64,000 bases of DNA from assembly GCA_001972305.1 (NCBI GenBank), contig BDDD01001357.1:1-64000 (forward strand), written 5' to 3'. The DNA is from Cephalotus follicularis. Its lineage: Eukaryota > Streptophyta > Magnoliopsida > Oxalidales > Cephalotaceae. The translations under genes and the position numbers were made by a program. The notes beneath the pieces are model-generated. The model searched no databases. It was not told the origin of the DNA and was given only the letters and a program-made list of their open reading frames with translations. Positions 4,332 through 52,325 of the stretch are shown piece after piece; the stretch's first letter is position 1; every line of letters begins with the position of its first letter.

Positions 4332-4372
<41 letters not shown>

Positions 4373-24590: not shown

Positions 24591-25265
24591 GGGTGGGAGA
24601 TCTATCTACGGTTTCCAGATTGATCAGGTCTGGAACTCATAGATCTTCCAGCCTATGGCTGGGTCAATACGGTGAGCTCAACCATAAAGGGAGCAATCGG
24701 TAAGCTCAACCGTCAGGGAGCAACAATCGGTAAGCTCGACCATAAAGGGAGCAACAATCAATACCGCTCGTCAGCGGGTCAATACAACACAATAAATGAA
24801 ACGATCGACAGAATAGGCGGACAAGGTCAACGCCCTAACATGCCGACACGAATCATAAGGTCGCTCTATAGGATCCATACAATACAATCAATCAATCAAT
24901 CCAGTCAATACAATATTGGGTAAAGTCAATAAGTGGTGGGGTCTAATGGAGAAATGGGAACGTGCGTCCATCGTACCGACTTATGCTCGCAACAACATTC
25001 ACGACTCAAGCAATCGATCGATGTACCAATACAACGTCGAAACAAAGCAATAAGTGGTGGTGCCTAATGGAGGGATGGGAACGTGCATCCATTTTACCGA
25101 CTTAGACTCGCAGCAACACTCATGACCCAAGCAATCAATCGGTCAGTACAATCAATAAAACTGTTTTCAAACACTTGAACACCTCAAGAGAGGTTCCGGT
25201 CAAGTGGCTATGTGAAAAGAAGTAGAAAACTAGCTTTAAAACAATCAAAACTCTTTTCAATACAT

Positions 25266-25612
25266 TAGGCGTCGACGTCTTTAATGAAAGACGTCGACTC
25301 CTCTTTAAAATGGAGGAAAGACGTCGATGTCTTTATAAAGGCGTCGATGTCTTTCCTTGTTTATATAGAGGATTGGCCAAAAGACGTCGACGTCTTTAAT
25401 GAAAGGCGTCGACGCTTTTCAATAAAATTAATGAGAGAATACGCATCGATGTTCGACATCGACGCCTTTTCTGGGGAGACGTCTCGATGCAAAGACGTCG
25501 ACGTCTTTCTAAAGACGTCGATGTCTTTGATGCAGAATCAAGAATATTGCTCTCGTATGAGAAAGACATCGACGCCTTTGGGCTAGGGGTCGACGTCTTT
25601 CCTGGCAGTGTC
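25266..25612. repeat. GACGTCGACGTC palindrome array
   Basis: At least ten copies of an 18-bp palindrome AAAGACGTCGACGTCTTT and variants (AAAGGCGTCGAYGTCTTT, GACATCGACGCC). GTCGA cores at 25271/25293, 25323/25343, 25386/25408 and 25497/25517 are 20-22 bp apart. The array begins right after the truncated end of pol. Confidence 0.8.
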
Positions 25613-25615
25613 GAT

Positions 25616-27102
25616 TTTTCTGATTCAAAAAGGAAAGGGTATGTCTCTCTCATATCATCCTCGCGCTCCCAGGTGCGCTCCATAGAACCATGATACTGCC
25701 ATAGAACACTGACCAAAGGGATGGTCTTGTTCCTCAAAACTCTTATCTTTCGGTCAACAATCTGTATAGGAGTCTCTGTAAACGATAAGTCAGGTTCCAG
25801 CTGAATCTGACCATACTCAATGATGTGCGAGGGATCTCGAACATATCTCCTCAACTGAGAAACATGGAACACATCATGCACTCCCGACAATGCTGGAGGC
25901 AAGGCTAGCCTGTAAGCAAGTCGGCCAATCCGATCCAATACCTCGAAAGGTCCAATGAAGCGAGGAGAAAGCTTTCCTTTCTTCCTGAATCTCATGACTC
26001 CTTTAGTGGGCGACACTTTGAGGAAAACATGGTCACCAACACTAAACTCCAAGTCTCTACGATGAACATCCGCATAGCTCTTCTGTCTACTCTGTGCAAC
26101 AATCAGTCAGTCTTTTATCAATTTCACTTTCTCTGCGGTAATCTGTACAATCTCTGGCCCCAAGATACTCTTTTCACCGACCTGATCCCAACAAACCGGT
26201 GATCGGCACTTCCTACCATATAGGGCTTCACAGGGAGCCATCTGTATGCTCTCATGATAACTGTTGTTATATGAGAACTCAATCAAATGCAAATAGTCAT
26301 CCCAACTACCTCCAAAGTCGAGCACGCATGCTCGAAGCATGTCCTCCAATATCTGAATGGTCCTTTCGGACAAACCATCTATTTGGGGATGAAAAGTAGT
26401 GCTGAAACTCAATTCTGTACCCATAGCTACCTGTAACTTCCTCCAAAACCCGGAAGTGAAGCGAGTGTCTCGATCCAAAACAATGCTGACAGGAGTTCCA
26501 TGTGCTTTAACAATCTCTTTCATGAACAATCTGGACAGCTTATCTCTAGAATAAGTCATCCGAATCGGTAGAAAGTGGGCCGACTTCGTGAGTCGATCAA
26601 CCACAACCCAAATACCATCATGTCTGTCACGAGTCTGAGGCAACCCAGACACGAAATCCATGGTAATATGCTCCCATTTCCACTCCGGAATGAGCAAAGG
26701 CTGAAGCAAGCCTGCCGGTCTTTGGTGCTCTGCCTTAACTTGCTGACAAGTGAGGCATCTCGATACAAACTCTGCGATTTCTCTCTTCATGTCAATCCAC
26801 CAATAGCCAAGTTTTAGGTCACGATACATCTTCGTACTCCCTGGGTGAACAGAGAGACGAGATTTATGAGCTTGAGAAAGAAGCTCTTCCTTCAACTCGC
26901 TATCGGCTGGAATGCAAATCCTGTTCCTATATCTCAATAACCCATCTGTAGATAGAGAGAAATCGGGTTTCAATCCTTCATCAATAGCAGTAGCCACTTT
27001 CTGTAATTCCATATCCCCTATCTGTGCATCTCTAATCCGGTCAAACAAAGCAGGTTGAACCTGAATATGGGAAAGAGTCATACAAGATAACTTGCGACTC
27101 AA
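25616..27102 (-). pseudogene. Gypsy integrase with C-terminal chromodomain-like tail
   Basis: The minus frame from 27102 to about 25616 reads through one TGA at 26107-26109. It contains the zinc-binding end CLTCQQVKAEH, the first catalytic Asp in MDFVSGLP, the second in LDRDTRFTSGFW, and the Glu in [16 protein letters not shown]. Then come the GDHVFLKVSP and LSGVHDVFHVSQLRRYV segments and a chromodomain-like tail (VLRNKTIPLVSVLW, WEREDDMRETYPFLF). The normal family pattern [11 protein letters not shown] is HPQIDGLSERT here. The ending is lost; it fuses to array sequence. Confidence 0.85.
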
Positions 27103-27680
27103 TGCATCTGCATGACATTTGCTCTCCCAGGATGGTATTCAATGTCATAATCATAATCATTAAGAAGCTCAAACCACCTTCTCTGTCTCATGTTCAATTC
27201 CTTCTGTGAAAAGAGATATCTCAAACTCTTATGATCAGTGAAAACTGTAAACTTGGTCCCATAAAGGTAGTGGCGCCATTTTCCAAGAGCAAAGACAATG
27301 GCCGCCTGCTCCAAGTCATGCACTGGGTAGTTTTCCTCAAGTGGTTTGATCTTCCTCGATGCATAAGCAATCACTTTGCCATATTGCATAAGAACACAAC
27401 CAAGCCCCTTTCCAGAAGCATCGGTGTACACAACAAAGTCTTCGTTCCCGTCAGGCAAAGCTAGGACAGGAACGGAAATCAATCTGCCTTTCAACTCTTG
27501 AAAACTTCTTTCACAATCACTATCCCATACAAAGGCAGCGTTCTTCTGTGTCAATCTGGTCAACGGTGTTGCAATACGGGAAAATCCCTCAACAAACCGA
27601 CGATAATACCCTGCTAAACCCAAGAAGCTGCGAACTTCAGAAGCATTCGTCGGTCGTTTCCAATCTTTCACTGCCTCCAG
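27099..27680 (-). pseudogene. Gypsy RT C-terminal part and RNase H fragment
   Basis: It starts inside RT at [19 protein letters not shown], then has RNase H with [16 protein letters not shown] (first Asp), [15 protein letters not shown] (Glu) and [13 protein letters not shown] (Asp). A one-base frameshift at about 27103 separates it from the integrase frame that follows. The upstream side stops at 27680 against LTR-like DNA, so the RT catalytic core is absent. Confidence 0.85.
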
Positions 27681-28404: not shown

Positions 28405-29586
28405 TGTCACACCCCGCTTGCATTAACAACATACAACATGGCAATTTAACAGATATCCAGCTTATACAGAGAACGGTAAAATTTAAAACTTTTAAACAGA
28501 CATCATCTTGCGGAAGCACATATATATATAAGCTGAAACGAACGGAAACATGCTTCCCATACCGCATGATCCACACAAACCTCACCATAACATGTTAAAA
28601 AGCCCACAAACGGAGCATGATCCAAAGTTAAACAACAACGATAGCAAAACATTAGTACATAAAACAAGGTACAACATGTTCGCTACACTGCTTAACAAAG
28701 CACTTAAAACTTAAAACTCCGTCACATCACTGTCCAGCATAGCCATGCTCGGCGACATCCCAAAACGCAGCATCAATCTGCAACAGTAGGGGGTTAGCCT
28801 TTGTCCTCACTCGGCCAAAGTCATAAAAACAACACAATATTAATAAAACCCAAGTATGAAAGCAGCATAATGCGGTACATACTATATCTCGATGCATATA
28901 TATAAATATAGATATGCATAAGCCCAAACACGATGTCACGATGTCACAGTAATCACGATGTCACAATATCACGATGCACGGTCTCAAACAAGTCCAAAGG
29001 ACTACACAAAACACGGTTCACGATGGGTACGAAGAGCGTCGCCAACTCCTGGCCCCAACGTCGTACATCCCGTCATCGGCCCCGACTCCGGACGGCACGA
29101 AGCAGGTCACAATGCAGTGAGTCACCCAGCCAACTCCTGGCCCCTGAGTCGACCTAGCCACTAGCCATCGCTGGCACCTCCGCCACGCAACTAGTACGGC
29201 CATAATCACAATCACAATCAAAATCACAGTCAAGCTCAATCAAAATCATCTCGATGCTCAAAATTGTTTTCCAAGTAGTTTATAAAACAAAATACCTGAA
29301 AACAAACTCATTTTCACGATGTCACGGTTCACGGTTCTCGATATCATAAAACTCAGTTCACGGTATTTTTGGAAGCCATTTTCACGGTTCGAAAGTATAT
29401 ATTTCTCAAACATATAATTTCGTGTAAAGTAATGATTTTTCATTAAACTACAATGCACTTCCATAACATGTTATAACAGTTTAATCTCAATAACCACAAT
29501 ACCCAAAACAGTTCATAAAGCTTCACGAAGCAAAACACCACAATACACGATGCATACATATGTTTACGGGCCAAACAGGCCCCCAA

Positions 29587-29876
29587 CAGTCGGCTACCCA
29601 CCACTGGCAGTCGGCTGTCCCCCCCAAAGTAGTCGGCTGCCAGCCCCAGGCAGTCGGCTGTCTATATAGACAGTCGGCTGCCCACTCTCGACAGTCGGCT
29701 GGCCCTCAAGACAGTCGGCTGTCCACACCCCCACAGTCGGCTGTCGACCTACGACAGTCGACTACACAACCCCTGCAGACATATCCTGGACACGAATGTG
29801 AGCAGTCGACTGTCCTCCCTAGGATAGTCGGCTGGACCCCTAGGCAGTCAACTGCCCAGGGTGGGCAGTCGGCTGG
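29587..29876. repeat. CAGTCGGCTG/CAGTCGACTG array 1
   Basis: Thirteen or so copies start at 29587, 29608, 29630, 29651, 29671, 29692, 29712, 29734, 29755, 29803, 29825, 29845 and 29866. Apart from one 48-bp gap all steps are 20-22 bp. The spacers differ in sequence, so this is not a simple tandem repeat. Confidence 0.9.
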
Positions 29877-30404
29877 ATTCTGCAGCAGGTGTAAAAAACC
29901 AGCTGGTAAAACAGCCTCAAACACACACCAAACACAACCCAAAATGACATATTTATGCACATACACGTTCCAAACTCACAATATAACATAAACATTCATT
30001 TTATTTCATCAAAAACATTATCAATTGAAATTATGTTGCAAAAACGACTTCCCCCTACCTTAGAACTCCAAGTTAGGAGTTGCAATCCACCTCTTTATGT
30101 CTAAATCCGAAGCTCTTGCAACCCCAACACGTCCAGCCATCTTCAACAGGTCCGGATTCCCACTGTCAAGCCTCCAACTTTCGGTTTTCTTCACAAACAC
30201 CTCAAAGCCTCAACACACACACACACTTTCACTCTCAACTCACAAGAAATCTCTTGAAAACACAAAGATTGATGGAGAAAGAGGAGAGAAATGTTGTGTT
30301 TTATGGTGAAAACCCCCGACCCCTCCTCTGCCATTTACAATAAACCAAAACACTCCCCCAAATGTCACTTAAGGCAGACAGCACGTGGGGTTGTCTGGCA
30401 CATG

Positions 30405-30535
30405 GCAGTCGACTGCCTTGCTTGGCAGTCGACTGTTTCTGCCGACACTCCCACCAGCCGGCTGCCTCCATTTGGCAGCTGGCTGCCACGCCTCAGTAAG
30501 GGTCCAGTCGGCTTCCTCCCTGTGGCAATCGGCTG
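30405..30535. repeat. CAGTCGACTG array 2
   Basis: Perfect CAGTCGACTG at 30405 and 30425 (20 bp apart), followed by weaker copies: CAGCCGGCTG, CAGCTGGCTG, CAGTCGGCTT and CAATCGGCTG. It belongs to the same solo LTR as array 1, nearer its transcription-side end. Confidence 0.85.
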
Positions 30536-30683
30536 CCCCTGCACAAAAACACACAACAACACACTTTCTTGCAACCTTTCAACACGGGAAAGAGGGAAAA
30601 CACGATTCTCATTAACACAAGGTGTAAAATTACATTGGAAAGCAATATTACACATAAATGAAAATCCCGGGCGTTACATATAC

Positions 30684-30899
30684 CATAGGAGTTCTGCTAG
30701 AAGAGATGGATTAGCAATTTGGGAAAACGAGCTTGCCAATTCCTGGAAGATTTGGCCTTATGCCCGATTATGGCTAGTTCGATTAGTTGATCTCATTGCT
30801 AGTGGTGTGGTGTATTTAGCAATTGGGTATGAATGTTAGATTGATAGTTGTTTCAAATGCTTTAGGGCTTTAGCCTCACATACTGTAATTTTGCAGAAC
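30684..30899 (+). other. CACTA interior, possible exon remnant
   Basis: An open stretch ends at TAG 30837-30839 with composition unlike the nearby LTRs (WENELANSWKIWPYARLW; LVRLVDLIASGVVYLAIGY). I do not recognise it. It may be a fragment of a CACTA gene or a captured host exon, interrupted by the 28405-30678 solo LTR. Confidence 0.3.
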
Positions 30900-31825
30900 A
30901 AATGTAGCATTTTATATCTCAGTTTCTTGAGGTAATTTTTCCTATTTTTTCAGGAGAATGATCCCACGCTAATGGGAAGGGTAAAAAAAAAGTGATGCAT
31001 GCGAAATGCAGAGCTTTTATCAACATTATTACAAAAAGTACATCCAAGCTTTGCAAAATGCTGTTGATAAAGCTGATCGGTGAGTTTTGGCTCTCTTTAG
31101 GTGATATTTTGATAGAAAAATCTCTTTACTTGATGTGCTTTGAAACTGCTATTCTTGTTACTGTATTTGACTACCCAAATTTTGTTTCCATCCAGTGCAC
31201 AGCTTACAAAGGCATACCAAACTGCCAATGTTCTATTTGAGGTTTTGAAGGCTGCCAATGTTCTACAAAGGCTGCAAATTTTACGTTGATCTTGATAAAT
31301 TAATTGTATCGTATTTTGATTTTTGATACTCTTATGCTCACGATCGATGTTTATTTACATTCAAGCAAAATAGTTTGTTGGCTATAATATTGTATAATGA
31401 TATATAAAAATTGTATTTAATTCGAGATGTAGCGATTGTAGCTCAGTCGATGTAATGTGTGCTTCTTAATCATAATGTCATTGGTTCGATGCAATGTCTG
31501 CTTCTCAATTATAATGTCTGCTTATCATGATTATTCGCTTGTACATTTAAGCAAAATAATTTGTTGTCTATAATATTGTATAATAATATATTTTTATTAT
31601 TTTTTAATAAAAAAATTTGATTATAAAAGATTTAAATGAATTATATATATTTTTATTTTTTAAAACCCTTTTGAAACAGTCGTATCAACGGTTTAAAAAG
31701 GGTATTTTTTATAAAACCTTTTGAAACGGACAAACCGTTTCGAAAGGCTACCCTTTTGAAATGGTTTGAGTCAGCCGTTTCAAAAGGGTTTATTTTTTTT
31801 ATTTTTTAAAAACCTTTTGAAACGG
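30900..31825 (+). repeat. Duplicated segment X, copy 1 (CACTA DNA)
   Basis: 926 bp that recur, with no difference I could find in the parts compared, at 35464-36389. It includes a tRNA-Lys-like sequence and CACTA sub-terminal repeats (31665-31825) up to the Copia-3 LTR. Confidence 0.9.
31432..31499 (+). other. Degenerate tRNA-Lys-like sequence (possible SINE head or pseudo-tRNA)
   Basis: TAGCTCAGTCGATG resembles a Pol III A box and GGTTCGATGC a B box, about 40 bp apart. A CTT anticodon would lie in the loop TTCTTAA as in tRNA-Lys, and the T arm pairs CATTG with CAATG. The acceptor stem pairs only about five of seven positions and the D loop is unusual, so an active tRNA gene is unlikely. An identical copy lies at 35996-36063. 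Confidence 0.35.
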
Positions 31826-33077
31826 TGTAGGAAGTCTAGAGGGGGGGTGAATAAACTTATAAAAATTACTAGCAATTATACCACAAAATAATTCAATTAA
31901 CACAAACACACAATTGCGGAAAGTAAAGAGTGTAGGGTTTAGAGAATTTGCAAACGGATATATAGTGGTTCGATAAACCGCCTACGTCCACTCCCCAAGG
32001 CCTCCCCTTGAGTATTTCACTAGGTATGCCCAAATCCGGGCTTGAAACTCCAACTGAGCTCCAACAAACTTCGCTCCAGCCAAGCGAATTACAACTTTGC
32101 TCCAACCGAGAAATACAAGAGACAACCTCTCTTGTATGAGTGAAATAAGTGTTTGAAAGGTTACAAATTCGTAGTGAATTTGTTTACAATAAAGCACAAC
32201 TCTAAACAAAGCTTCTAGTAAATGTGGAATGTAAAATGTGAGCTTTGTAATGTATTGGATTGCTTTGAAATGATCTCTTTTGATTGTTTGAAAGCTTGGT
32301 ATTGTACTTGAGATAGCTTGGAAGAATATGCAACTTGAATGCTTGATCACTTGTGCAAGAGTTCCAAATTTCCTTAAATAGGTGTGCCTCCAACGAATCT
32401 ATTTTTAACTGTCTGTTACAAATCCAGTCGACTGGATTTGGACGGCAGTCAGCTGGATTGATGACGCGTACATTTGAATATAGCCGTTGGGGTTGGGCAG
32501 TCGGCTGTCTCCTCTAGGCAGTCGACTGGTCTGGCTGGCAGTCGACTGGATGCTCTGTTCTAGTCGGCTGTTGAGCTGAATTTGGAGATTACAAATGCTA
32601 CTGCCTGATTTTGCACAATTCAAAACAGTCGGTTGGATTCCCTGGCAGTCGACTGGTGCCCTGCTTCAGTCGGCTGGATTGGGTGTTAAAATGTTACATA
32701 AGCTACTGCCTGAAATTGTACCCCATGGCAGTCGACTGGTGTCCTGTGACAGTCGACTGGATTTTCCTGGCAGTCGACTGGACCCCTGTGGCAGTCGACT
32801 GGATTGGTGTTCCTGCAGATGCTGAGTTTGGTTGAAGAAACAGTCGACTACATCCTCTGGGATTCGACTACTTAACCTTGGGCAGTCGACTGGATTGCTC
32901 ACCAGTCGGCTGGATTGGCTTGTATCTGCATAAATGTTCTTGGCACAACTTTGGACATAAAATCAAGTGAGTATATGAAGTTATAACTCAAGGAATTACG
33001 CATACAAGTAATCTATGTTTTTTAATCATCAAAATAACATATGTAAATGCAATTGAACGGGGTGGCAAAGGCCAACA
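31826..33077 (-). repeat. 3' LTR of Copia-3
   Basis: 1,252 bp with TG...CA ends. The first 536 bp (to about 32361) are identical to the right LTR; beyond that, differences appear roughly every 20 bp. It holds the CAGTCGACTG arrays at 32425-32570 and 32626-32912. Confidence 0.9.
32425..32912. repeat. CAGTCGACTG array 3 (Copia-3 left LTR)
   Basis: Copies start at 32425, 32446, 32498, 32519, 32539, 32561, 32626, 32646, 32667, 32729, 32750, 32771, 32792, 32841, 32883 and 32903, with a weaker one near 32862. Within each cluster, steps are 20-22 bp. The right LTR has the same set plus an extra copy near 37120 and 37230 and a few point changes. Confidence 0.9.
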
Positions 33078-33093
33078 ATCTCCCCCTTTTTTA
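33078..33093 (-). other. Polypurine tract of Copia-3
   Basis: The minus strand reads AAAAAAGGGGGAGAT immediately before the 3' LTR, as expected for plus-strand priming. Several further GGGGGAG runs (33345-33415) lie inside and could be extra purine tracts. Confidence 0.8.
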
Positions 33094-33774
33094 TGATTGA
33101 CAAAACATGCATATTTTACATAAATCTTGACAAATTTTACCCAATTTAGTTCCAAAGTCCAATTTTACCAATATAGGCATATCCAAGGCACATGTCATAT
33201 CAACATACACTTGCTCAAAGCAAGATTACAATCTATCTCATCACTATGCAATGTTGTCCCCCAAATGCAACTTCAATTTTGCAAACTTTCGATTTTCATG
33301 CAAAAATGTGCAATGTGCAATACAATGCAAAATAATATCTCTCCCCCTTTTTGTCAAACACCAAAAGAGAAGTGGAAGCTCCCCCTCAATCATAGCATGG
33401 ATTGAAGAGCTCCCCCTCAACTTATGCATTCATATACAATTTTATCAATAAGAACAATGCAATAAGAGAGATCAATAAAGATGGAAGCACAATTCCATTA
33501 AACACTTGAAGTACATAAACAATCTCATTAGCCCCAAGATCAAAGCAAAAAAAAAAACATTAAAATACTTAGGCATTCAACACATAAACCCTCAATTTCA
33601 TAAACCACATTCATGTAAGCCAAAGCATTGAAGATCAAAGCATTTTAACATAAAATACTTAAAACTTTGAAGTACATAAACCACATTGTCTTTTACAAGG
33701 TTCAAAAGCTAAAGGACATTACAAGTGCAAAGTTCCAAAATACAAAGAAAAAACATGATAATGCAAATGTAAGC
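33094..33774. other. Copia-3 3' untranslated region
   Basis: A/T-rich sequence between the accessory ORF stop and the polypurine tract. It includes repeated CTCCCCCT motifs and repeated ACATAAACCA/TTAAAACTT segments. No coding seen. Confidence 0.5.
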
Positions 33775-34929
33775 TCAAGAGGGCGGAGGGTGCTGAGGGA
33801 AAGCATTTTGAAACATCTCAATGATGTTTGCTTGTCCCCGAAGGAGGTCGGCTTGACTTTGAAGAATGTTTGCTTGTCCCTCACGAAACTGATGCATTTC
33901 CCCTTTGATAAACTCGATGTCGGCCTGGGCAAGATCCATTCTTGCCTGAAGAGACTCCAAGGTAGGCCTGCTGCTGCTGCTGCTGCTCGGGCCAACACTC
34001 GGACGCATCTCAAACTGTTGAGGATCGTCCTCATCATCATCATCATCCCCAACCCCAACAGGTGCTTGCTCTCTTACTTGCTCTCTACCTCTTCCTTGCA
34101 TCTTGACCCACTATCCATCCTCAAATACAATGTTACACAATCTAAGCCCTGCCTTGTTCACCAATTGCTTATGGGTAGGTTTGACACTTTGCTCATCATC
34201 CGGAAGATCTATGTTAAGTGAAGCAAGGACAACCGTAATGATCCTACTGAGAAGCATAGGATACGGAGTGTGATTCGGTCGAGATAATATGTGGTTGACA
34301 ATGAAGTAAGGAAGGTTAATTGGAGTACCATTCTTGACACATGCAACAAATTTAAAGTCTCGCTCGGAAGGAAGAGTGTGCGAGCCTTCTTTTGGGAGGA
34401 AGGTGTTTGTTACAAGAAGTAGAATGATCCTAGAGGCAATTGGAAAATGACTACTAGTCACATTCATAAGTGGATTGACATTAGGTTGTTCTAGACAAAT
34501 TCCTAGGGCCTCCGTCCTTCCAATGTCATTGAAATTCGTAATTCCCTCATTAGGAATTCCTAATGTTTTGGCAACTAAGTCAGGAGTAATTGAAATAGGA
34601 GTGCCTAACACAAATGAATTGGCAATGCAAGTGGTGGAGGATTCTAAATTGGCATAAAACAATTTTACTAACCTAGGGTATATGATGTGAGATGAGCAAA
34701 TATAAGCAAACCAACCCATAGTCTCTAACCAAGTCATGACAATGGCTAGATTGCTAACAAGTACATCCCTAGATAACCACTTCTCCAAATGTAGTTTAAC
34801 TGAGCTAAAATGAGAGTTATACCTCATATCTTTCTCTTTGGAGAGAAAGAGTGTATTGACATAGTCTAGCTCCACTTGTGAGCCCCTTGGTAGCCTTGAA
34901 GTAGATGCTCTTGCTCTCTTAGGTGCCAT
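33775..34929 (-). pseudogene. Copia-3 accessory protein, 'putative plant transposon protein' family (PF20167-like), one in-frame stop
   Basis: From the ATG at 34929 (MAPKRARASTSR) the minus frame has about 270 codons, a TAG at 34111-34113, then continues in the same frame to TGA-type stop at 33775. The first part has the family pattern: a basic N-terminus, ELDYVNTLFLSKEKDMRYN, LSRDVLVSNLAIVMTWLE, and a helical core ending in HKQLVNKAGLRLCNIVFE. After the TAG come an acidic run of D/E, a Ser run and an amphipathic coiled coil (LESLQARMDLAQADIEFIKGEM). ORFs of this family sit downstream of pol or in LTR elements in plants; their role is unknown. The start at 34929 is preferred because an earlier in-frame ATG at 35151 would translate the palindrome array. 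Confidence 0.75.
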
Positions 34930-35043
34930 TGATGATTGCAGGTCGAGATTTTGAGAGAGAAAGGTGTTTGCCGTATTTAAAATTGTGAGAAGTGAGAAAG
35001 GGCAGGAGAAAAATCGGGTATAAAACCCTGACTGTCGTGATTC

Positions 35044-35115
35044 CAGTCGACTGGCCACTAATGGCAGTCGACTGGAAGGCAAGGCAGTCGACTGGACAGA
35101 TTGTCCAGTCGGCTG
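35044..35115. repeat. CAGTCGACTG array 4, upstream of the accessory ORF
   Basis: Four copies at 35044, 35065, 35085 and 35106 (20-21 bp steps), 115-177 bp before the accessory ATG. This array is in the internal region, not in an LTR, so a second independent array sits just where a promoter or leader of the accessory gene would be. Confidence 0.9.
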
Positions 35116-35334
35116 TTTTCTGCAGAAATGAGAAATGCAGAAAATTGCCATCCAATTGAATGTGCAAGCCTTTGGTTAACTATTATGGACTAATAGCAAT
35201 CTAGGTACATGAGCTAATTTATGTTAATGAGTTGCAAACTCAATGTTCAAATGCAAGATGATCTTTGAAAACATTTTTCAATCAATTCAATCAAAAATCA
35301 ATAAAGCATTACAATTTCACATTATAGAGTTTAG

Positions 35335-35463
35335 GAAGGATTTTGCATACCTAGCTCTCTCCGCAAAGTGCAGAATCTTTCATTGTCCAGCGGCTTTGTG
35401 AATATATCTGCCACTTGGTTCAAAGTGTCAATATATTCAAGAAATATGTCACCCTTTTCAACA
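35335..35463 (-). pseudogene. Copia-3 pol C-terminus (RNase H end)
   Basis: The minus strand encodes VEKGDIFLEYIDTLNQVADIFTKPLDNERF followed by CTLRRELGMQN, the usual end of Ty1/copia pol (ADIFTKPL). Everything upstream is cut off at 35463, where segment X copy 2 begins. This dates the rearrangement after Copia-3 insertion. Confidence 0.9.
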
Positions 35464-36389
35464 AAATGTAGCATTTTATATCTCAGTTTCTTGAGGTAAT
35501 TTTTCCTATTTTTTCAGGAGAATGATCCCACGCTAATGGGAAGGGTAAAAAAAAAGTGATGCATGCGAAATGCAGAGCTTTTATCAACATTATTACAAAA
35601 AGTACATCCAAGCTTTGCAAAATGCTGTTGATAAAGCTGATCGGTGAGTTTTGGCTCTCTTTAGGTGATATTTTGATAGAAAAATCTCTTTACTTGATGT
35701 GCTTTGAAACTGCTATTCTTGTTACTGTATTTGACTACCCAAATTTTGTTTCCATCCAGTGCACAGCTTACAAAGGCATACCAAACTGCCAATGTTCTAT
35801 TTGAGGTTTTGAAGGCTGCCAATGTTCTACAAAGGCTGCAAATTTTACGTTGATCTTGATAAATTAATTGTATCGTATTTTGATTTTTGATACTCTTATG
35901 CTCACGATCGATGTTTATTTACATTCAAGCAAAATAGTTTGTTGGCTATAATATTGTATAATGATATATAAAAATTGTATTTAATTCGAGATGTAGCGAT
36001 TGTAGCTCAGTCGATGTAATGTGTGCTTCTTAATCATAATGTCATTGGTTCGATGCAATGTCTGCTTCTCAATTATAATGTCTGCTTATCATGATTATTC
36101 GCTTGTACATTTAAGCAAAATAATTTGTTGTCTATAATATTGTATAATAATATATTTTTATTATTTTTTAATAAAAAAATTTGATTATAAAAGATTTAAA
36201 TGAATTATATATATTTTTATTTTTTAAAACCCTTTTGAAACAGTCGTATCAACGGTTTAAAAAGGGTATTTTTTATAAAACCTTTTGAAACGGACAAACC
36301 GTTTCGAAAGGCTACCCTTTTGAAATGGTTTGAGTCAGCCGTTTCAAAAGGGTTTATTTTTTTTATTTTTTAAAAACCTTTTGAAACGG
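35464..36389 (+). repeat. Duplicated segment X, copy 2
   Basis: Same sequence as 30900-31825, offset 4,564 bp. It sits inside Copia-3 but is made of CACTA DNA that normally lies left of Copia-3. The junction has short shared bases (CAACAAAATG versus GAACAAATG). Confidence 0.9.
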
Positions 36390-37681
36390 TGTAGGAAGTC
36401 TAGAGGGGGGGTGAATAAACTTATAAAAATTACTAGCAATTATACCACAAAATAATTCAATTAACACAAACACACAATTGCGGAAAGTAAAGAGTGTAGG
36501 GTTTAGAGAATTTGCAAACGGATATATAGTGGTTCGATAAACCGCCTACGTCCACTCCCCAAGGCCTCCCCTTGAGTATTTCACTAGGTATGCCCAAATC
36601 CGGGCTTGAAACTCCAACTGAGCTCCAACAAACTTCGCTCCAGCCAAGCGAATTACAACTTTGCTCCAACCGAGAAATACAAGAGACAACCTCTCTTGTA
36701 TGAGTGAAATAAGTGTTTGAAAGGTTACAAATTCGTAGTGAATTTGTTTACAATAAAGCACAACTCTAAACAAAGCTTCTAGTAAATGTGGAATGTAAAA
36801 TGTGAGCTTTGTAATGTATTGGATTGCTTTGAAATGATCTCTTTTGATTGTTTGAAAGCTTGGTATTGTACTTGAGATAGCTTGGAAGAATATGCAACTT
36901 GAATGCTTGATCACTTGTGCAAGAGCTCCAAATTTCCTTAAATAGGTGTACCTCCAACGGATCTATTTTTAACTTTCTGTTACAAATCCAGTCAACTGGA
37001 TTTGGACGGCAGTCAGCTGGATTGATGGCGCGTACATTTGAATATAGCCGTTAGGGTTGGGCAGTCGGCTGTCTCCTCTAGGCAGTTGACTGGTCTGGCT
37101 GGCAGTCGACTGGTCTGGCTGGCAGTCGACTGGATGCTCTGTTCCAGTCGGCTGTTGAGCTGAATTTGGAGATTACAAATGCTACTGCCTGATTTTGCAC
37201 AATTCAAAACAGTCGGCTGGATTCCCTGGCAGTCGACTGGATCCCCTGGCAGTCGACTGGTGCCCTGCTTCAGTCGGCTAGATTGGGTGTTAAAATGTTA
37301 TAGAAGCTACTGCCTGAAATTGTACCCCATGGCAGTCGACTGGTGTCCTGTGACAGTGGACTGGAATTGCCTGGCAGTCGACTGGACCCCTGTGGCAGTC
37401 GACTGGATTGGTGTTCCTACAGATTCTGAGTTTGGTTGAAGAAACAGTCGACTACATCCTCTGGGAGTCGACTACTTAACCTTGGGCAGTCGACTAGATT
37501 GCTCACCAGTCGGCTGGATTGGCCTGTATCTGCATAAATGTTCTTGGCACAACTTTGGACATAAAATCAACTGAGTATATGAAGTTATAACTCAAGGAAT
37601 TATGCATACAAGTAATCTATGTTTTTTAATCATCAAAACAACATATGTAAATGCAATTGAACGGGGTGGCAAAGGCCAACA
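36390..37681 (-). repeat. Right LTR of Copia-3 (chimeric solo LTR)
   Basis: 1,292 bp. It is preceded by AACGG (36385-36389) and followed by AACGG (37682-37686), so on its own it looks like a solo LTR in segment X. The left 536 bp are identical to the left LTR and the rest is diverged, suggesting it formed by crossing-over between two LTRs near 36925. Confidence 0.85.
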
Positions 37682-37835
37682 AACGGTTTGATCAGTCGTT
37701 TCGAAAGGGTGCCTTTTGAAACGGCTGGTCAAACAGTTTCAAAAAGCTATTGATACGCCACTTTTTTGAAATTCCATTTTTTTCGTTTCAAAAACGTTTC
37801 AATTGCCCTTTTGAAATGGAAAAGTTTTTGTAATG
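37682..37835. repeat. Right sub-terminal repeats and end of the CACTA element
   Basis: Contains AAACGGTTTGATCAGTCGTTTC, CCTTTTGAAACGG and TTTCAAAAAG units in inverted pairs, ending GTTTTTGTAATG. An AAT duplication follows. Confidence 0.75.
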
Positions 37836-37838
37836 AAT

Positions 37839-38112
37839 TATATAAAGGAAGAGAAGAAAATATTAAATTAACAGAAAATGAGATTTATCCTGGTTCACCC
37901 AATCTAGGGCTACGTCCAGCAACAAGAGTTTCACTGTATTGATCAATAGTCTTCTCACTTCTCTCTTGTTTCAAGCTCTCACACAATACAAGAGAATATA
38001 TATAGGCGAAGAAACCCTAATAGTTTCTTATCATGTGGCTATTCATGGGCTAAGCCCAAACCACAAACAGGGTCATAATACTGATCATTTGAATTAATCG
38101 TCAACCTCAACA
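37839..38112 (-). repeat. Copia-2 3' LTR, right fragment
   Basis: It continues the LTR after the CACTA insertion and ends CCTCAACA beside the polypurine tract (CCAAGTGGGAGAT on the minus strand, 38113-38125). It lacks a G/C-rich segment of about 150 bp present in the 5' LTR. Confidence 0.9.
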
Positions 38113-38119
38113 ATCTCCC

Positions 38120-38633
38120 ACTTGGTGAATAATTCACACAAATACAAGGATCTTTTTAAACCAACATTAGCTGCGCACCACTCAAACTTCTCTAGGCTAA
38201 CCGCTTTAGTCAGAAAATCTGAGTTGTTCACTGCCGTGTCAACTTTCTCCAACAATACCACTTTCTTTTCTACCTTTTCTCGAATGAAGTGGTATTAAAT
38301 ATCAATGTGCTTAGATCTTGAATGAAACGCTGGATTCTTTGCCAAGAAAATTGCTCCTTGATTGTCACATTTCATTTTCATTCCATCTTGCTTAAATCCA
38401 AGCTCAACACATAACCTATTAAGCCACACAGCTTCCTTACTAGCATGAGTCAATGCCATGTACTCTGCCTCAGTAGAAGATAGAGCAACAACACTTTGTC
38501 TTCTACTCCTCCAACTCACCGCAACACCAAATAAACTAAGCACGTAACCACTAGTAGATTTCCTACCATCAATGTCTCCTCCCCAATCTGCATCAACATA
38601 ACCCTCTACATCAAGTTTATTTCCATTCCCCAT
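38120..38633 (-). pseudogene. Copia-2 RNase H
   Basis: The minus frame contains GYVDADWGGDIDGRKSTSGY (first Asp), VALSSTEAEYMAL (Glu) and KCDNQGAIFLAKNPAFHSR (Asp), the Ty1/copia RNase H catalytic set. A stop interrupts the HIDI-YHF segment at 38292-38294; beyond it weak similarity to the DFLTKA-type C-terminus continues to about 38120. Confidence 0.9.
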
Positions 38634-38705
38634 ACCTTCTTAACATAGAGCAAAATCTGATGTTCCACGAAGATATCTGAAAACCCTTTTGACTGTAGTC
38701 CAATG

Positions 38706-39428
38706 TTATTTTCCAGGGTTGGACAAATAACGACTCAATACTCCCACTGCTTGTGCAATATCTAGTCTAGTGACCATAGCATACATCAAGCTACCCACTG
38801 CATTTGTATATGGCGTATGTCTCATCTCTTCAGCTTCATCATCGGTTTTAGGATATTGTTCTGCAGATAACTTGGTTCCCAAAGGCATGGGAGTTCCATT
38901 TGGCTTGCAGTCAGACATATTGAATTTCTTCAACACCTCTTCAATATATTTCTTCTGTCCTAGACAAAGTTTCTGTTTTTTATGGTCTCTCTTAATTTTC
39001 ATGCCCAAAATAAAGTTAACTGGCCCAAGATGTTTCATCTCAAACTGTCGCGCCAACAAACCTTTCACTGATTTGATCATCTTCATGCTATTCCCTATCA
39101 AAAGCATATCATCCACATATAAGGTTAGAATAACAAAATTTTGATCTAACCTTTTCACATATACACAGTGATCTGAATTTCACCGAATAGAGCCAAGCTG
39201 AAGAACATATGTATCAAATTTCAGGTACCACATCCTCGGCGATTGCTTTAGTCCATATAAAGACTTCTTTAATCTACAAACCAAATCTTCCTTTCCTTTG
39301 ACAAGAAAACCCTATGGTTGTTTCATGTAAATCTCATCCTCCAAATCTTCATGAAGAAAAGCTGTCTTCACATCTAGTGGCTCAATTTCTAGACCAAAAG
39401 CAGCTGCAACGGATAGAACAAGTCTTAT
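38706..39428 (-). pseudogene. Copia-2 RT, C-terminal two-thirds
   Basis: The minus strand has the intact catalytic motif LYVDDMLLIGN, then HLGPVNFILGMKIKRD and SLMYAMVTRLDIAQAV. Upstream (39160-39428) RT sequence continues with a stop or two, up to the gypsy insertion at 39428. The other part of RT is at 49559-49881. Confidence 0.9.
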
Positions 39429-39601
39429 TGTAATGACCTCGATTTTCAATTAATGTATATTGCTCCAATTTTAAATAAAATATACATTTTAATTGAGATT
39501 ATTTGTCCAATTATCAAAATAATCATGATTAGTGTATGCTTGGGTTGAATTGAGATGCAAATTGGTAAAACAAACTTAAGGAACCCTAAAATCAGCTCAA
39601 A

Positions 39602-39681
39602 CAGCCGACTGTCATAGGGTAACAGTCGACTGGTTGATTCATGGAAGAGACAGTCGACTATCACAGGATGACAGTCTACTG
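39602..39681. repeat. CAGTCGACTG array 5
   Basis: Starts at 39602 (CAGCCGACTG), 39623, 39651 and 39672 (CAGTCTACTG). Steps are 21, 28 and 21 bp. It lies 170-250 bp from the LTR start, in presumed U3. Confidence 0.85.
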
Positions 39682-40718
39682 GAACGACACATAACAGGTG
39701 TTTGTGCATGCATGTGAGATAGAGCAGAGGCAGTGCATAATGAACAAGTGTTATGCGAGTCACCAGCTACCTTAACATGCAAGGATGGTGTCTTGCATGT
39801 GCTCTATTCCTCCTGAAACCTGCAAACAGAATATTGGAAGGAGAGAAAGTGAATGGAAGTAATGAACATGTGAGAGAGAGAAAAGAGATGGCTGAGTTAA
39901 TGGAATCTGACGATTTCTCGGACTTCTAAGCTCTATATCAGCTGTTAGAATAGAGTGTGAGTGTTAGAAAATACTGATGATAGAGGAGATCTTGCTGGAA
40001 ATTCTTGAAGCTTGCATGTTGGAAGTTGAAGTTTCAAAGGGAGTTGAAGCTTGAATCTCCCTGGTAAGTCCCAATCCGAGTCTGCTGATGTTGATGATGT
40101 AACTAGGAGAATGTTAGCTATATATATATATAACTTATGCTAACATGATTAAGGATAATAAGTCTGGAATTGAAATAAAATTGGAAAAGGGTTCAAAGAA
40201 GAAGTTGAAACTAGGAACTAATAATGATGAGCTACAAATCGGATATTAGGTTGTTAGTGGATTAAATATACTGATGATAGTAATATATGTCCACTGATAA
40301 CATGATTATGAATGATTAAATTACTGGGATTAGAGCTGATTGTTAGGGAGAAGTTGAAAAGGGTAAAATTTGAGGCTTGATAAATAATTGACAAGCTACT
40401 GTTGGAACTGGTAATTGACTAGGTAATTAGTTAAATGTACTGGTTAAATGTCTAAACCTTCGAACATGCAATGGTATAGATCAATTCTGCTGAGATTGGA
40501 AGATTAAATTGGTGGAAGAGCTTTGGACATTGAAGAGAGAAATCAATCCGAATTGATTTCGGGATAGCGTTTAAGGTAGGGATATTGACATGTTTTCGAA
40601 GATATAATGTGCATATCATGTGTGGATAATTTCCTGTTTGATTGCATGTGTTACTGAGTTAGTATTTTGGACATTGAACATGCATGCCCTGTCACTGCCT
40701 GTTGATTTCTGGGCAAAT

Positions 40719-40809
40719 CAGTCGACTGTTCTTCATGACAGTCGACTACTCAATCAAACCAGTCGACTACTAAATCAAACAGCCGACTGTTCTTGGGAAC
40801 AGTCGACTG
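40719..40809. repeat. CAGTCGACTG array 6
   Basis: Five copies at 40719, 40739, 40760, 40780 (CAGCCGACTG) and 40800, all 20-21 bp apart. Spacers are AT-rich and differ. Confidence 0.9.
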
Positions 40810-42098
40810 TCCTAAGATAAACTTCTGATATAGGTACTGTTTAGGCCTTAAATTGAATGTAATTACCCTGGCCTCCATATGGTATGATTGTAACAGTCAA
40901 TCCTGGCCTTATATAATTACATTAAAAAATTAAACAATGTATGCACTCCTTGTGAGAGTTGTGCAAGAATGACTATGGTATGATAACGACCTTATTGAAT
41001 CCTTGAATTGCTACTGTCCTTTACTATTTTGCTGTATATGCCACTGTTACAATTAGTATATACTAGTTTTGGTGTTCATAAACACTATTGTTCCCTTACT
41101 TTCAAAGAATTGAACCAACTAAGTGCTATGTGCACAATTAATGATTTCAACTATCATTTTCAAATGAAACCTAATGATTTCTGATTTTCCTCCAAGAGAG
41201 GCACCACTACCGTATTGAATACTGTTTCCTCCAAGGAGATGCACAGTTATTGAAATGTTAAATGTTTCTAAAGAAAACTTCTACTATATTGCATATATTA
41301 TATATGTGATATTTTTATTGAATTGATTAAATTGTTTGTCTATGCTTAAAGCTGTTAGTCGAATGATGACAGATATCACTGGCTACGGAGGTAGTCCTAG
41401 GTGCCAGGAGTTGGCTAGAGCATCCACCCAAACTTATCTGCCCTGCAGATCTTTTGTTAAACTGCCCGCTAACGCCGGCAGTAAATGTTACCTGATCTAT
41501 CATCTTCGAAGTGTAGGATGATAGTTAGGTGGTACGCAGTTGGTGCTAGGAGTTAGCGACATGTGTTACCCAACCACATTATGGATTGATTTTACCCTTG
41601 TGCGGTATTCTTGAATTGTTCTGTCTATGGCCACTTGACATGATTGCTTATATATTGGAATATTTAAATATGTTATTTTAAATATAAAATGTCATACATG
41701 TTGCATTTATATATTCCTTATCATGCATTATTCCTACTTAGCCAAGCGAGGACAACGGCTAACCCCCTACAATTTCAGATTAAGTGAAGGCATTCGGGGA
41801 GGTACTGCTGAAGCCTATTGGGGAGCTTCTATTTAGTTAAGGTTGTTATTCTTTATGCTTTGTATTGCAACGAACGTCCACGCTCCGTTGTTGTTGATTA
41901 CTTTACCTTTATGTAAAAGGATAAATGTTGGTTTTGTAGAAGCACGTAATATGGGCTGCGTGCGGATAATTGTATAATCCGGCAATGGAATGCTTCCACT
42001 TAATTTATGAATGTTGTTTAATGTTGGAATTCTGGATTATTATTTATATTTGATATCACCATATATGCATGTCATGTGGGAAACGGGGTGTGACAACA

Positions 42099-42110
42099 TG
42101 GTATCAGCGC
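42099..42110 (+). other. Primer-binding site of the Tekay-like element
   Basis: TGGTATCAGCGC three bases after the 5' LTR, complementary to Met tRNA with the Tekay-typical GCGC ending. Confidence 0.85.
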
Positions 42111-42198
42111 ATATTCCATATATGCTAGCTGGGATAAGTTTCTCAGAAATTAAGTGAATTGTTTCCTGATGATTATGTCATTCCATATAGGAAACCAA

Positions 42199-43736
42199 AT
42201 GGACCTACGAAGAGGTAGAAAGGGAAGGCGTAGAGCCGATGAATGAGTCAATGCACCGCCAGTGCACGAACATGATCCGCCAGCGAATGAAGGAGTGAAT
42301 ATTCCTCCAGCACAAGAAGAGAGGAGTAATTTTGATCGCATGGCTGACCTCTTCCAACAACAAATGCAAGCCAATGCGGCGAACATGGAGCAGATAAGGC
42401 AGATGTACGAGGCTAACCGGGCTTATCAGTAGGCTCCTGAGGCTTGTCATACTGGTGGATTTGCCAGAGATTTTTAGCGGTTCATGAGACAGAATCCCCC
42501 GACCTTCAATGGTGAGCTGAATGCTACTGTTGTCGAGCAGTGGATTAGGGACCTGGAGAAAATATTTGCTGCTTTGGAGTGTACTGATGAGCAGAAACTC
42601 AACTTTGCTGTTTACCGCTTATGGGGCGAGGCTACCTATTGGTGGGAAAGGATTGAAGCAAAATAGGAATCTCGTAGACTTGATAGGACTTGGGACAGAT
42701 TTCAGTCTGAGTTCCTTGCAACTTATGTACCACAGATAGAACGTGACCAGAGGGAGACCGAGCTGATGGAGTTACGTCAAGGGGATATGACGATAGCTCA
42801 GTACCAGACTAGATTCGTGGAATTGGCGAGACATACCCCCTATCTGGTGGAGGGTGAATCGCGAATGATCCGAAGGTTTCTGAACGTCCTTCGACCTGAC
42901 ATCATGTTTAAAATTTTATTACTGAAACTAACTTCGTTTGTAGATATTGCTGAAACGGCGATGATTCTTGAAGTTGATGCTAATGAAAGGAGAGCGGAAC
43001 GGTCTCGTACTAATCAATCGAGGGCCGCACAGTCACAGGGGCAGGGGAGTAATAATCCTACTAAGTTGACAAGGTCCGACAACAAGGGTCAAAGAGGTTC
43101 TCGACGCAGAAATTCACGATCAAGAACTCCTAACCGAAGCGGTCAACAGAATTCTAGAGGATGTACTTTTTGTGGTCACCAGAACCATGATGAGACTGAG
43201 TGCTGGAAGAAGATGGGGAAATGCTTAAGGTGTGGTTCACAAGAACATATGTTGAGTGGTTGTTCAATGATGAGGGATCAAGCACGCGGCCAACAGGGAA
43301 GTGTTGGTGCTAGTGGTAGTGCTGCGACTGCTCAACCACGGAAGGATACTGGGAAAAGGATTATGAAAGGTAGGGTCTACACCTTATCTAGAGATGATGT
43401 GCCGGAATCTACTACTGTTGTGGGAGGTACTATTTATATATTTGGCATACTAGCTCATGCATTGATTGACCCTAGTTCGACACATTCATTTATTGCATCT
43501 GAATTTGCTCACAATTTGCATGGTGTTACTTCTAGATTACCTTATGTATTGGAGGTGAGTACTCCAGCTGGTACTTGTCTTCTATCTGACACTATAATGA
43601 AAGATTATGAGATCATGGTAGCTGGGATTCAGTTATCTGCTGACTTGATAGTGTTACCTATCCGGGATTTTGATGTAATCTTGGGGATGGACTGGTTGTA
43701 TGCTATCATGCTTGTGTTGATTGCTATAACAAGATG
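42199..43736 (+). pseudogene. Gag and protease of the Tekay-like element
   Basis: From ATG 42199 the frame is broken by stops at about 42244, 42432, 42475 and 42664, then open to 43737. The gag core is clear (FNGELNATVVEQWIRDLEK, YWWERIEAK, LRQGDMTIAQYQTRFVEL). Two zinc knuckles follow: CTFCGHQNHDETEC and CLRCGSQEHMLSGC, both CX2CX4HX4C. The protease active site is LIDPSSTHSFIASEF. A one-base deletion at about 43700 in the GMDWLYA segment shifts the frame into pol. Three of the four early stops are TAG where related proteins commonly have Gln. Confidence 0.9.
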
Positions 43737-44555
43737 ATGACCTTTTACCTTCAAGATGGGACTGAGTGCAAGTTTATCAGAGAAAAGAATGTTTCTGCTC
43801 CGATCAATTCGTATACTCGAGCACAGAAGTATCTCAAGCAAGGATGTGAAGGCTATTTGGCGTATGTGATTGATCACACGAAAGGTACACCTAGTATTGA
43901 ACAAGGTCCTGTTGTATGTGAATTTCTTGATGTATTTTTGGACGATCTCACTCCGTCACCACCAGAGAGGGATATAAAGTTCAACATTGAACTATTGCCT
44001 GGAGATGCTCCTATATCAAAAGCTCCGTACCGAATGGCTCCTACTGAACTGAAGGAGTTGAAGACTCAATTGCAAGATTATCTTGATAAGGGTTTCATCA
44101 AACGGAGTGTGTCACAGTGGGGAACACCGGTCCTGTTTGTGAAAAAGAAGGATGGATCAATGCGACTATGCATCGATTACAGGCTGCTAAATCAGGTAAC
44201 TGTGAAGAACAAGTATCCTCTGCCACATATCGAGGAATTGTTCGACCAATTGCAAGGCTCTACTGTATTCTCCAAACTTGACCTGAGAACAGGTTATCAT
44301 CAGTTGAGAATTCGAGCAGGTGATGTGGAGAAGACCACATTTCGAACCAGATATGGGCATTACGAATTTCTGATACTGCCGTTTGGTTTGACAAATGCTC
44401 ATGCAGCCTTTATGTGTTTGATGAACAGAGTGTTACAGCCCTATCTTGACCAGTTTGTCGTTATATTCCTAGACGGCATCCTGATTTATTCGAGGAGTAT
44501 TGAGGAACACATGCAGCACTTGAGGATTGTATTATAGATATTACGAAAGGAACAG
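43700..44555 (+). pseudogene. Reverse transcriptase of the Tekay-like element, catalytic Asp lost
   Basis: The frame has [50 protein letters not shown] and [17 protein letters not shown]. The catalytic motif, normally F-I/V-D-D, reads FLDGILIYS: the second Asp is Gly. TAG at 44535 interrupts [10 protein letters not shown]. The D-to-G change alone should abolish polymerase activity. Confidence 0.9.
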
Positions 44556-45690
44556 TTGTTCACCAAATTCAGCAAGTGCGAGTTTTGGCTGGATCATGTG
44601 ACTTTCCTAGGTCACATTGTGTCGAGTGAAGTATTGTTGGTGGATCCTTCGAAGATAGAGAGTATTGTTGATTGGCCCCAACCGAGGAGCGTTACTGAGG
44701 TTCGTAGCTTCTTGGGTTTGTCTGGCTACTACCGAAGGTTCATACAAGGGTTTTCAAAGCTTACTACACCATTGAAACTGTTGACTCAGAAGAAGTCAAG
44801 TTTTGTGTGGGATGAATCTTGTGAGGCAAGTTTCCAAGAGTTGAAGAGTCGGTTGATTTCGGCTCCAGTGTTGGCATTACCGGAAGGTAATGAGGGTTTC
44901 ACTGTCTATACTGATGCTTGTGGGAAGGGATTGGGATGCATTCTTATGAAACATGGTAGGGTGATTGCATACGCATCGAGAAAGTTAAAGTCGTACGAAG
45001 AAAATTATCCCGTACACGATCTTGAATTGGCAGCCATAGTATTTGCTTTGCAGAAATTGAGGCACTACCTCTATGGTGCTCAATTTGAGATCTTCACTGA
45101 CCACAAAAGTTTAAAGTATTTGTTTTCCCAGAAGGAGATCAACATTAGACAGAGACGATGGGTGAAATTCTTTAATGATTACAACTGTAACATCCAATAC
45201 CACCCAGGAAAGGCAAATGTAGTGGCGGATGCGCTGAGTCGTAAGGCAATGATTGCTGGAGCAATGGTTTTGCAGTGGAAGCTATTAGAGGAATTTCAGA
45301 GATGGAATCCATTCATGGTTTCCCGAGGAGTTATTGTGGCAGATCTTAAAGCTCAACCGGAACTTCTGGAGCGTATTCTGACTGCTCAGTACAGTGACAC
45401 CGAGTTATGGAGTATTCATGAGAACCTAGACACTAATTCTGAATTCTCCATTCATACTGATGGCATATTGAGATTCCGAGGAAGGATATGTGTTCCGGAT
45501 GACGAGAGCATCAGGGATGAACTACTGCAGTAAGCCCACAAGTAAAAATACAGTGTTCACCTTGGGAGTTCCAAGATATGGCATGACCTGAAAAAGAACT
45601 ACTGGTGGAGTGGTATCAAAAGAGAGATTGCCGAATATGTAGCAAGATGTTTGACCTGTCAGAGAATGAAGGCTGAACATCAGAAACCTG
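44556..45690 (+). pseudogene. RNase H and integrase N-terminus of the Tekay-like element
   Basis: [20 protein letters not shown] starts the connection. RNase H follows with [31 protein letters not shown] and [13 protein letters not shown], ending [10 protein letters not shown]. The integrase zinc region, H...H then [11 protein letters not shown], comes after two stops at 45531-45545. A one-base deletion near 45692 shifts the frame before the integrase core. Confidence 0.9.
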
Positions 45691-46785: not shown

Positions 46786-46813
46786 AGCAAAATTCGGGGA
46801 CAAATTTTTTTTA

Positions 46814-46827
46814 ATGAGGGGGGGAAT
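46814..46827 (+). other. Polypurine tract of the Tekay-like element
   Basis: TGAGGGGGGGAA immediately before the 3' LTR start at 46828. Confidence 0.85.
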
Positions 46828-50380: not shown

Positions 50381-50383
50381 AGG

Positions 50384-52300: not shown

Positions 52301-52310
52301 CTATGAACCT

Positions 52311-52323: not shown

Positions 52324-52325
52324 AT

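Follow-up and report, generated by a model that had tools for sequence, protein, structure and literature searches.

Repeated motif (RM) boxes have been described for Sireviruses of the copia superfamily as palindromes located in the long terminal repeats (LTRs) and before the gene in the env position, and they were considered to be Sirevirus-specific (Bousios et al. 2010, PMC2829016). A 64,000-nucleotide stretch of the Cephalotus follicularis genome (assembly GCA_001972305.1, contig BDDD01001357.1, labelled C1357, positions 1 to 64,000; termed the window here) was found to contain arrays of a 10-bp box, CAGYCGACTG, both in a Sirevirus derivative (element B) and in LTRs of Ty3/gypsy type (element C and, probably, element A). 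These arrays are a real, strong and functional-looking feature. The copia half of the finding is of the kind already described, while the occurrence of the same box in gypsy LTRs is a new extension. With a probability of roughly 0.7, the boxes would represent cis-regulatory enhancer arrays for one DNA-binding factor, or factor family, driving transcription of the elements that carry them.

Comparison with described systems

Comparison of element B to the RM description, in the sections of PMC2829016 consulted, showed that it fits the RM layout with a changed core, as judged from its sequence. RM boxes possess dyad symmetry with at least eight copies per element, and the two LTR copies of B were found to contain 16 and 19 boxes, with four more before an open reading frame (ORF). 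RM clusters occupy the upper LTR half, starting 200-400 bp into it, while the array of B spans positions 165-692 of 1292 bp, thereby beginning slightly early and ending slightly past the middle. Additional copies 5' of the env-position gene, as described for RM boxes, were identified in 10 of 12 fetched gene copies, in the window copy and at locus L006 (L-numbers being labelled loci from the same assembly). In the RM layout, a CpG island and a TATA box follow closely on the cluster; among the TATA-like runs listed here, none was decisive. The exceptions to this agreement are the following. The Cephalotus box lacks the CGG-CCG core, the Vitis Sirevirus box CGGTCGACCG and the Cephalotus form CAGTCGACTG differing symmetrically at two positions (CG to CA and CG to TG); the exception to this core in the table of PMC2829016 is Tnd-1 (ACAATCGATTGT). 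Pairs of the Vitis-type box were not found in the Cephalotus assembly (0 pairs). Furthermore, the Cephalotus arrays are not confined to Sireviruses, being present in both LTRs of gypsy element C and, by position, at locus L029, and they possess a helical phasing and an orientation rule that the consulted parts of the RM description do not contain.

In maize, the palindrome CACCGGACNNNGTCCGGTG has been identified as the most abundant motif in the structured regions of Copia elements and in those of Helitrons (PMC10760457), and occurrence across superfamilies therefore has a precedent. However, that palindrome is of another sequence and, in the parts of the paper drawn on here, is treated as an RNA structure and small-RNA source, with no sharing with Ty3/gypsy. 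Palindromes of maize Sireviruses have been described as small-RNA hotspots (PMC5311732, PMC10760457). VANC motifs are short and form same-orientation tandem arrays in non-coding parts of VANDAL elements, with the VANC6 motif also being found in the unrelated element AT9TSD1 (PMC5735166). The original prediction for this DNA had drawn a parallel to VANC, which is apt in both of these respects, although VANC motifs are non-palindromic and the VANC protein possesses DUF1985/DUF287 (PMC5735166), for which no match was found in 20 PF20167 proteins at E values of up to 10, the genome not being searched for DUF1985. A reading in which LTR elements insert into palindromes (PMC6911290) was rejected, as the preference reported is slight and concerns insertion sites, the portion consulted being silent on arrays inside LTRs. 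Among the matches listed from the open-licence literature, no report of such boxes being shared between Sireviruses and gypsy elements was found by title or abstract start, and none of those containing the exact box strings was LTR-related on the same basis; our guess is that the latter papers hold primers.

Sequence, number and spacing of the boxes

The string CAGTCGRCTG was found to have 77 strand-matches in the window, with 0.08 expected and a maximum of 2 among 100 shuffles (a perfect palindrome scores on both strands). When up to two mismatches to CAGYCGRCTG were allowed, 67 boxes in seven arrays (13+6+16+4+19+4+5) were identified at 29587-40809, two of these arrays being sister copies from the two LTR copies of B, with 11 additional boxes at 47000-48271. 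The existence of the arrays, as originally predicted, was thus confirmed. When each element was represented by a single LTR copy, which leaves 51 boxes and 45 steps inside arrays, a step of 20-22 bp was found in 37 of the 45 cases. Read in the sense of the element, the box is CAGYCGACTG, with C in 23 and T in 28 boxes at position 4, and A in 49 and G in 2 at position 7. It is composed of CAG-CTG flanking TCGA and is not fully symmetric, the dyad being broken at position 4. Its GYCGAC portion resembles the DREB core, and the sites of DREB/CBF, WRKY and bZIP factors were considered as candidates.

Counts were extended to the whole assembly (1,577,397,061 bp) using the reversed pattern as a control. 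Box pairs 18-24 bp apart (8-14 bp between) numbered 84,010 on the plus and 83,756 on the minus strand (perfect-palindrome pairs entering on both), compared to 264 and 287 for the control. Pairs with a step of 23-27 bp (13-17 bp between) numbered 3,354 and 3,378 (control 7 and 7), the first class being approximately 25 times the second, with an overlap at 23-24 bp. The arrays are genome-wide. A sample of 25 stretches of 10 kb, placed at fixed offsets regardless of content (244,677 bp once N is removed), contained 71 exact boxes and 134 at up to one mismatch, while 59 permuted palindromes in the same stretches gave a median of 10 and a largest value of 45; at least three boxes were present in 11 of the 25. 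Rough extrapolation from this sample puts the assembly total at several hundred thousand boxes. The best period of the pair distances was 10.25 bp (score 0.59, 16 periods tried), and step values of 19-23 and about 28 bp occur, with no fixed 21.

The broken dyad and the variable step bear on a role at the RNA level, in which the palindromes would act as hairpins in LTR transcripts that feed small-RNA production or packaging. The small-RNA hotspots of maize are in agreement with such a role, as is the possibility that one array of element C (array b) is transcribed. However, the frequent variant CAGCCGACUG retains four of five self-pairs as sense RNA, while CAGUCGGCUG, which reaches five of five via G-U, is seldom the sense form (none of 21 asymmetric sites; 3 of 42 sites with the strand set by gene or homology), and a spacing of two turns is a property of DNA. 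Sense-RNA hairpins thus fit less well than DNA binding, and we regard this role as highly improbable. The earlier suggestion that the 21-bp step might reflect small interfering RNA is likewise weakened, because the change of T to C at position 4 breaks sense-RNA self-pairing and because the step varies.

Host elements of the arrays

The array-bearing copia host is, on its structural features, a rearranged, 5'-truncated Sirevirus derivative (B, 30.9-37.7 kb, minus strand, as are all of its features below). Its 3' LTR (31826-33077), of 1252 bp, contains 16 boxes (32425-32912) and the poly-C signal ATTCACCCCCCCTCTAG near its end. Four GGGGGAG polypurine-tract-like copies lie 5' of this LTR (33080-33416), multiple polypurine tracts at this location being a Sirevirus trait. 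An ORF with a match to PF20167 (Transposase_32, E 9.4e-16) occupies the env position (34111-34929), its end being shorter than that of its homologues. It is preceded by a four-box array (35044-35115), in which the boxes start at 186, 165, 145 and 124 bp 5' of the ATG, and by a C-terminal fragment of copia pol (...NQVADIFTKPLDNERFCTLRRELGM..., 35331-35459, the end coordinate being worked out by hand). A second LTR copy of 1292 bp (36390-37681), with CCGTT on each side, contains 19 boxes at up to two mismatches (36989-37516). Sister LTR arrays had been predicted for this region; the 11 boxes at 47000-48271 do lie in the 3' LTR of C, while the right-hand 'sister' of B at 36390-37681 looks like a solo LTR. 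A matching 0.9-kb flank follows both LTR copies of B (30897-31825 and 35460-36389, CCGTT beside the LTR), and B is therefore a rearranged or duplicated insertion and not a simple LTR pair. This repeated flank reflects either duplication of the insertion site or an effect of the assembly.

A poly-C integrase signal at the 3' end of the LTR and a conserved primer binding site are further Sirevirus traits. The poly-C signal was found in both LTR copies of B and at L044. A primer binding site-like sequence, TTGGTATCAGAG, was found only at L044, B being without its 5' part. At L044, the region 5' of the PF20167 copy contains, one after another, a box array, a stretch of N, the poly-C-bearing end of an LTR, TTGGTATCAGAG and a copia gag ORF of 595 aa (Retrotran_gag_2 and zf-CCHC), followed by a short stretch of pol that matched no Pfam profile. 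Copia-type gag and pol of the B lineage are thus represented by the gag of L044 and by the pol C-terminus, recognised by eye. A full copia pol was not found among the B-lineage copies examined, and B is without a complete reverse transcriptase. A separate motif, CCGTTTCAAAAGG, was observed as inverted pairs (21768-22017, 31667-31830, 36231-36390 and 37712-37830) that adjoin both LTR copies of B and occur at 21.8 kb as well, in an unrelated region.

Element C (39429-49558, plus strand) has both LTRs (39429-42095 and 46827-49558) and CTTAT on each side. Its gag-pol ORFs (42667-46716, plus strand) matched the Pfam profiles Retrotrans_gag, RVP_2, RVT_1, RT_RNaseH, rve and SH3_Tf2-1, with pol distributed across several ORFs. 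The order of gag, protease, reverse transcriptase, RNase H and integrase between LTRs, with a 5-bp target site duplication, identifies it as Ty3/gypsy, the rve match of 26.3 bits being under the cut-off of 32.6. In the Pfam profile search, its integrase end matched SH3_Tf2-1 and no chromodomain profile; the label Tekay is our assumption from LTR ends and resemblance. Arrays a and b were found at 39602-39681 and 40719-40809 in the 5' LTR (173-252 and 1290-1380 bp from the LTR start), and at 47000-47128 and 48166-48271 in the 3' LTR, all on the plus strand. C is inserted in a copia element, D (37836-52594, minus strand, LTRs 37836-38071 and 52359-52594), which was rejected as an array host, its LTRs containing no box within two mismatches.

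Element A (28405-30678, minus strand, 2274 bp, TGTAACGCCCGGG...GGGGTGTGACA) probably represents a solo LTR from a Ty3/gypsy element, presumably of the Tekay/Del type, with flanks GTATA/GTATG that match at four of five positions. It contains array A1 of six boxes (30406-30535, minus strand, steps 21, 29, 21, 29 and 20) and array A2 of 13 boxes (29587-29875, minus strand). A is tied to L029 via L031 (167 bp at 77% between A and L031, 270 bp at 75% between L031 and L029). At L029, TGTAACGGCC at 8134 comes after gypsy pol and precedes box arrays in an LTR-like stretch (+231-361 and +1174-1412 from its start), covered at its near end; by its position after gypsy pol, this would be a gypsy LTR with arrays. 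The claim that the hosts belong to different superfamilies therefore holds for the copia Sirevirus derivative and gypsy element C, with L029 by position, but not for the copia element around the chromovirus, whose LTRs are boxless within two mismatches. A further set of arrays, E, was considered as gypsy, with pol nearby in some loci, but LTR placement was not established and the strand was mixed, and E was therefore used for box conservation only.

Several other repeats were observed. At L021 (4853-8838), a unit of 1,994 bp that holds the end part of a gypsy pol and a box array is repeated head to tail at 100% identity, possibly as an assembly effect. A second palindrome, AAAGACGTCGACGTCTTT, which has a GTCGAC centre in common with the main box, is arrayed (up to three mismatches) at 25265-25579, directly past the gypsy pol of 25396-27680. 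Further arrays of it, in which steps of 20-21 bp are frequent, were found in L008, L015, L023, L025 and L031; it is single in L006 and L018, and has 4,083 exact places in the assembly compared to 18 for its reversed pattern. Direct repeats of approximately 2.5 kb (3405-5968 and 13828-16340), which are 87-92% identical and accompanied by a TGGTATCAGAG site (13826, minus strand), are probably LTRs of a further element; no box array was found in them, only scattered box-like sites, one at one mismatch and others at two.

Conservation of the boxes

Conservation was determined as mismatches to the column majority in boxes, spacers and flanks. In 11 rows of the Sirevirus linker, the boxes had 11/440 mismatches, the spacers 27/347 and the flanks 337/2634 (2.5, 7.8 and 12.8%). 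Two rows, L036 and L037, were dropped from this count as neither has an array; with all 13 rows, the mean column divergence was 0.088, 0.125 and 0.187, respectively. The same order of regions gave 11/280, 61/273 and 391/2180 (3.9, 22.3 and 17.9%) for seven rows of C array a, and 29/330, 59/285 and 322/1837 (8.8, 20.7 and 17.5%) for six rows of C array b. The E arrays (six rows) gave 35/470, 208/486 and 627/1820 (7.4, 42.8 and 34.5%), or 33/470, 216/489 and 617/1807 with L015 turned round. Nominal Fisher p values for boxes versus spacers ranged from 7e-4 to 9e-39 and serve as a guide only, since the rows are related and the boxes were located by the majority sequence. Within the linker, A/T sites were kept in boxes (2/165 changed, compared to 205/1644 in flanks), as were CG sites (2/88 compared to 20/110). 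The prediction that spacers vary while boxes are kept is thus upheld in the linker, C and E.

Orientation of the boxes and relationship between arrays

Across the assembly, neighbouring CAGCCGACTG boxes were found to point in the same direction in 32,658 of 33,696 pairs, with 376 and 662 in the two opposite arrangements. Where the strand is set by a gene or by LTR homology, CAGCCGACTG-type and CAGTCGGCTG-type boxes occur at 7:0 in B, 15:0 in A and 16:1 in C. This common orientation speaks for a directional reader or for one ancestral unit, and against a sense-RNA pairing rule. The original prediction had proposed sites for a dimeric protein, of which the DNA-binding protein stands as the best reading, while a strictly symmetric dimer does not predict an orientation bias.

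An ancestral unit could also exist with no present function, an array having moved once between superfamilies by template switching and its boxes persisting in a satellite-like manner by concerted evolution. The consistent orientation, a weak similarity of spacers across families and the recurrence of a 21-28-21 step pattern across gypsy families would agree with such a history. However, no match of at least 60 bp at E 1e-5 was found between the arrays of B and those of A or C, the flanks with boxes masked group by family, and the boxes are far more conserved than the spacers, which is not expected of a satellite. We consider this history very unlikely. An early linkage between the internal array of B and a flank of A was discarded as an artefact of the overlapping B LTR. 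The earlier statement that common descent of LTRs cannot explain the arrays is accordingly fair for copia versus gypsy, but the gypsy families may have inherited theirs.

Array upstream of the PF20167 gene

A first look at the genome gave 11,836 PF20167 candidates, of which 141 were scored and 12 fetched with 720 bp upstream. The four-box array was found upstream in 10 of these 12, as well as in the window copy, with box starts 123-187 bp before the ATG and, in the 10 copies, steps that equal 21/20/21 or deviate by no more than one base; in L036 and L037, no array was found within the 720 bp. A copia pol C-terminus was found 5' of the gene in 6 of the 12 (L040, one of these six, having another type) and also in the window copy. 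The 12 copies are not independent, being close relatives with at least 87% protein identity. At L006, where the PF20167 protein has 58% identity, the distances from box to ATG are 187, 166, 147 and 126 bp, a further pair of boxes lying at 301 and 280 bp, which indicates that the distance to the gene was kept over much divergence.

This conserved placement suggests an alternative in which the PF20167 protein of the Sirevirus itself binds the boxes, as a regulator or anti-silencer like VANC (PMC5735166), and controls its own gene and the LTR, with gypsy elements that are without the gene exploiting it. The abundance of PF20167 candidates and the basic N-termini of the proteins (MAPKRARA and MASKRRKS among the examples) are consistent with this, as is the predicted nuclear location of a PF20167-like protein encoded by an Athila ORF of sunflower (PMC11728184). 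However, no DNA-binding domain was recognised in profile searches of PF20167, and the array is missing in 2 of the 12 copies. The domain is also present in Athila of another plant, as part of the sunflower Athila accessory ORF, which is related to Athila ORF1 (PMC11728184). Comparison to solved structures by sequence gave a best E of 0.82, and two structure models were unusable (mean predicted local distance difference test scores, pLDDT, of 37.1 and 37.9). Binding by PF20167 is therefore unlikely in our view. Its wider form, in which the env-position gene would encode no envelope but a trans-acting PF20167 binder of the arrays at its own promoter and LTR, and gypsy families without the gene would have evolved or acquired these arrays and live off it in a two-superfamily regulon that helped to fill a 1.6-Gb genome, is about equally unlikely.

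Proposed function of the arrays

The enhancer reading builds on the enrichment, spacing, conservation and orientation of the boxes, their fixed distance to the ATG and their presence in Sirevirus and gypsy LTRs, all of which were observed. Arrays of CAGYCGACTG, mostly two helical turns apart, in LTRs and 5' of the Sirevirus accessory gene would be bound by one sequence-specific factor or factor family, probably a host transcription factor, and this binding would activate transcription of the element. Gypsy LTRs may have obtained the box code by recruiting the same factor, or through an old transfer of boxes with later drift of the spacers.

A number of observations weigh against this reading. 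The steps had been predicted to be almost always of 20, 21 or 22 bp, but 8 of the 45 in the window are longer (28, 29, 29, 48, 49, 52, 62 and 65 bp), and 28/29 bp is a second recurrent step, 28 bp corresponding to 2.7 turns. CHG sites of the linker change equally in boxes (7/187) and flanks (5/143). The LTR pairs have no clear box effect, with 2/206, 10/664 and 18/748 changes in boxes, spacers and flanks for B (11 boxes locatable) and 2/100, 51/2307 and 9/728 for C (five locatable), counts that are uninformative due to the few changes and to ties that limit the locatable boxes. In C, a TATA-like run (LTR position 691) precedes array b, which may thus be transcribed. E arrays with a gene-defined strand are mixed in orientation (1:2). 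Finally, a weak spacer trend is common to the families (z 1.8 to 7.2), being, as we read it, pyrimidine-rich on the left and purine-rich on the right, and the recognised unit, or its ancestry, may therefore exceed 10 bp; together with the orientation bias, this could mean that one ancestral unit has spread.

The finding bears on how plant LTR retrotransposons are switched on and on whether one switch can serve unrelated families. The same box in two unrelated kinds of element suggests reliance on one DNA-reading protein, and a box of known sequence, spacing and orientation that is common to copia and gypsy makes a shared switch directly testable. Such a switch would carry the repeated motif, which in 2010 was described as specific to Sireviruses, over to Ty3/gypsy elements, offers an alternative function for the puzzling env-like gene, and would suggest why two lineages expanded in one genome.

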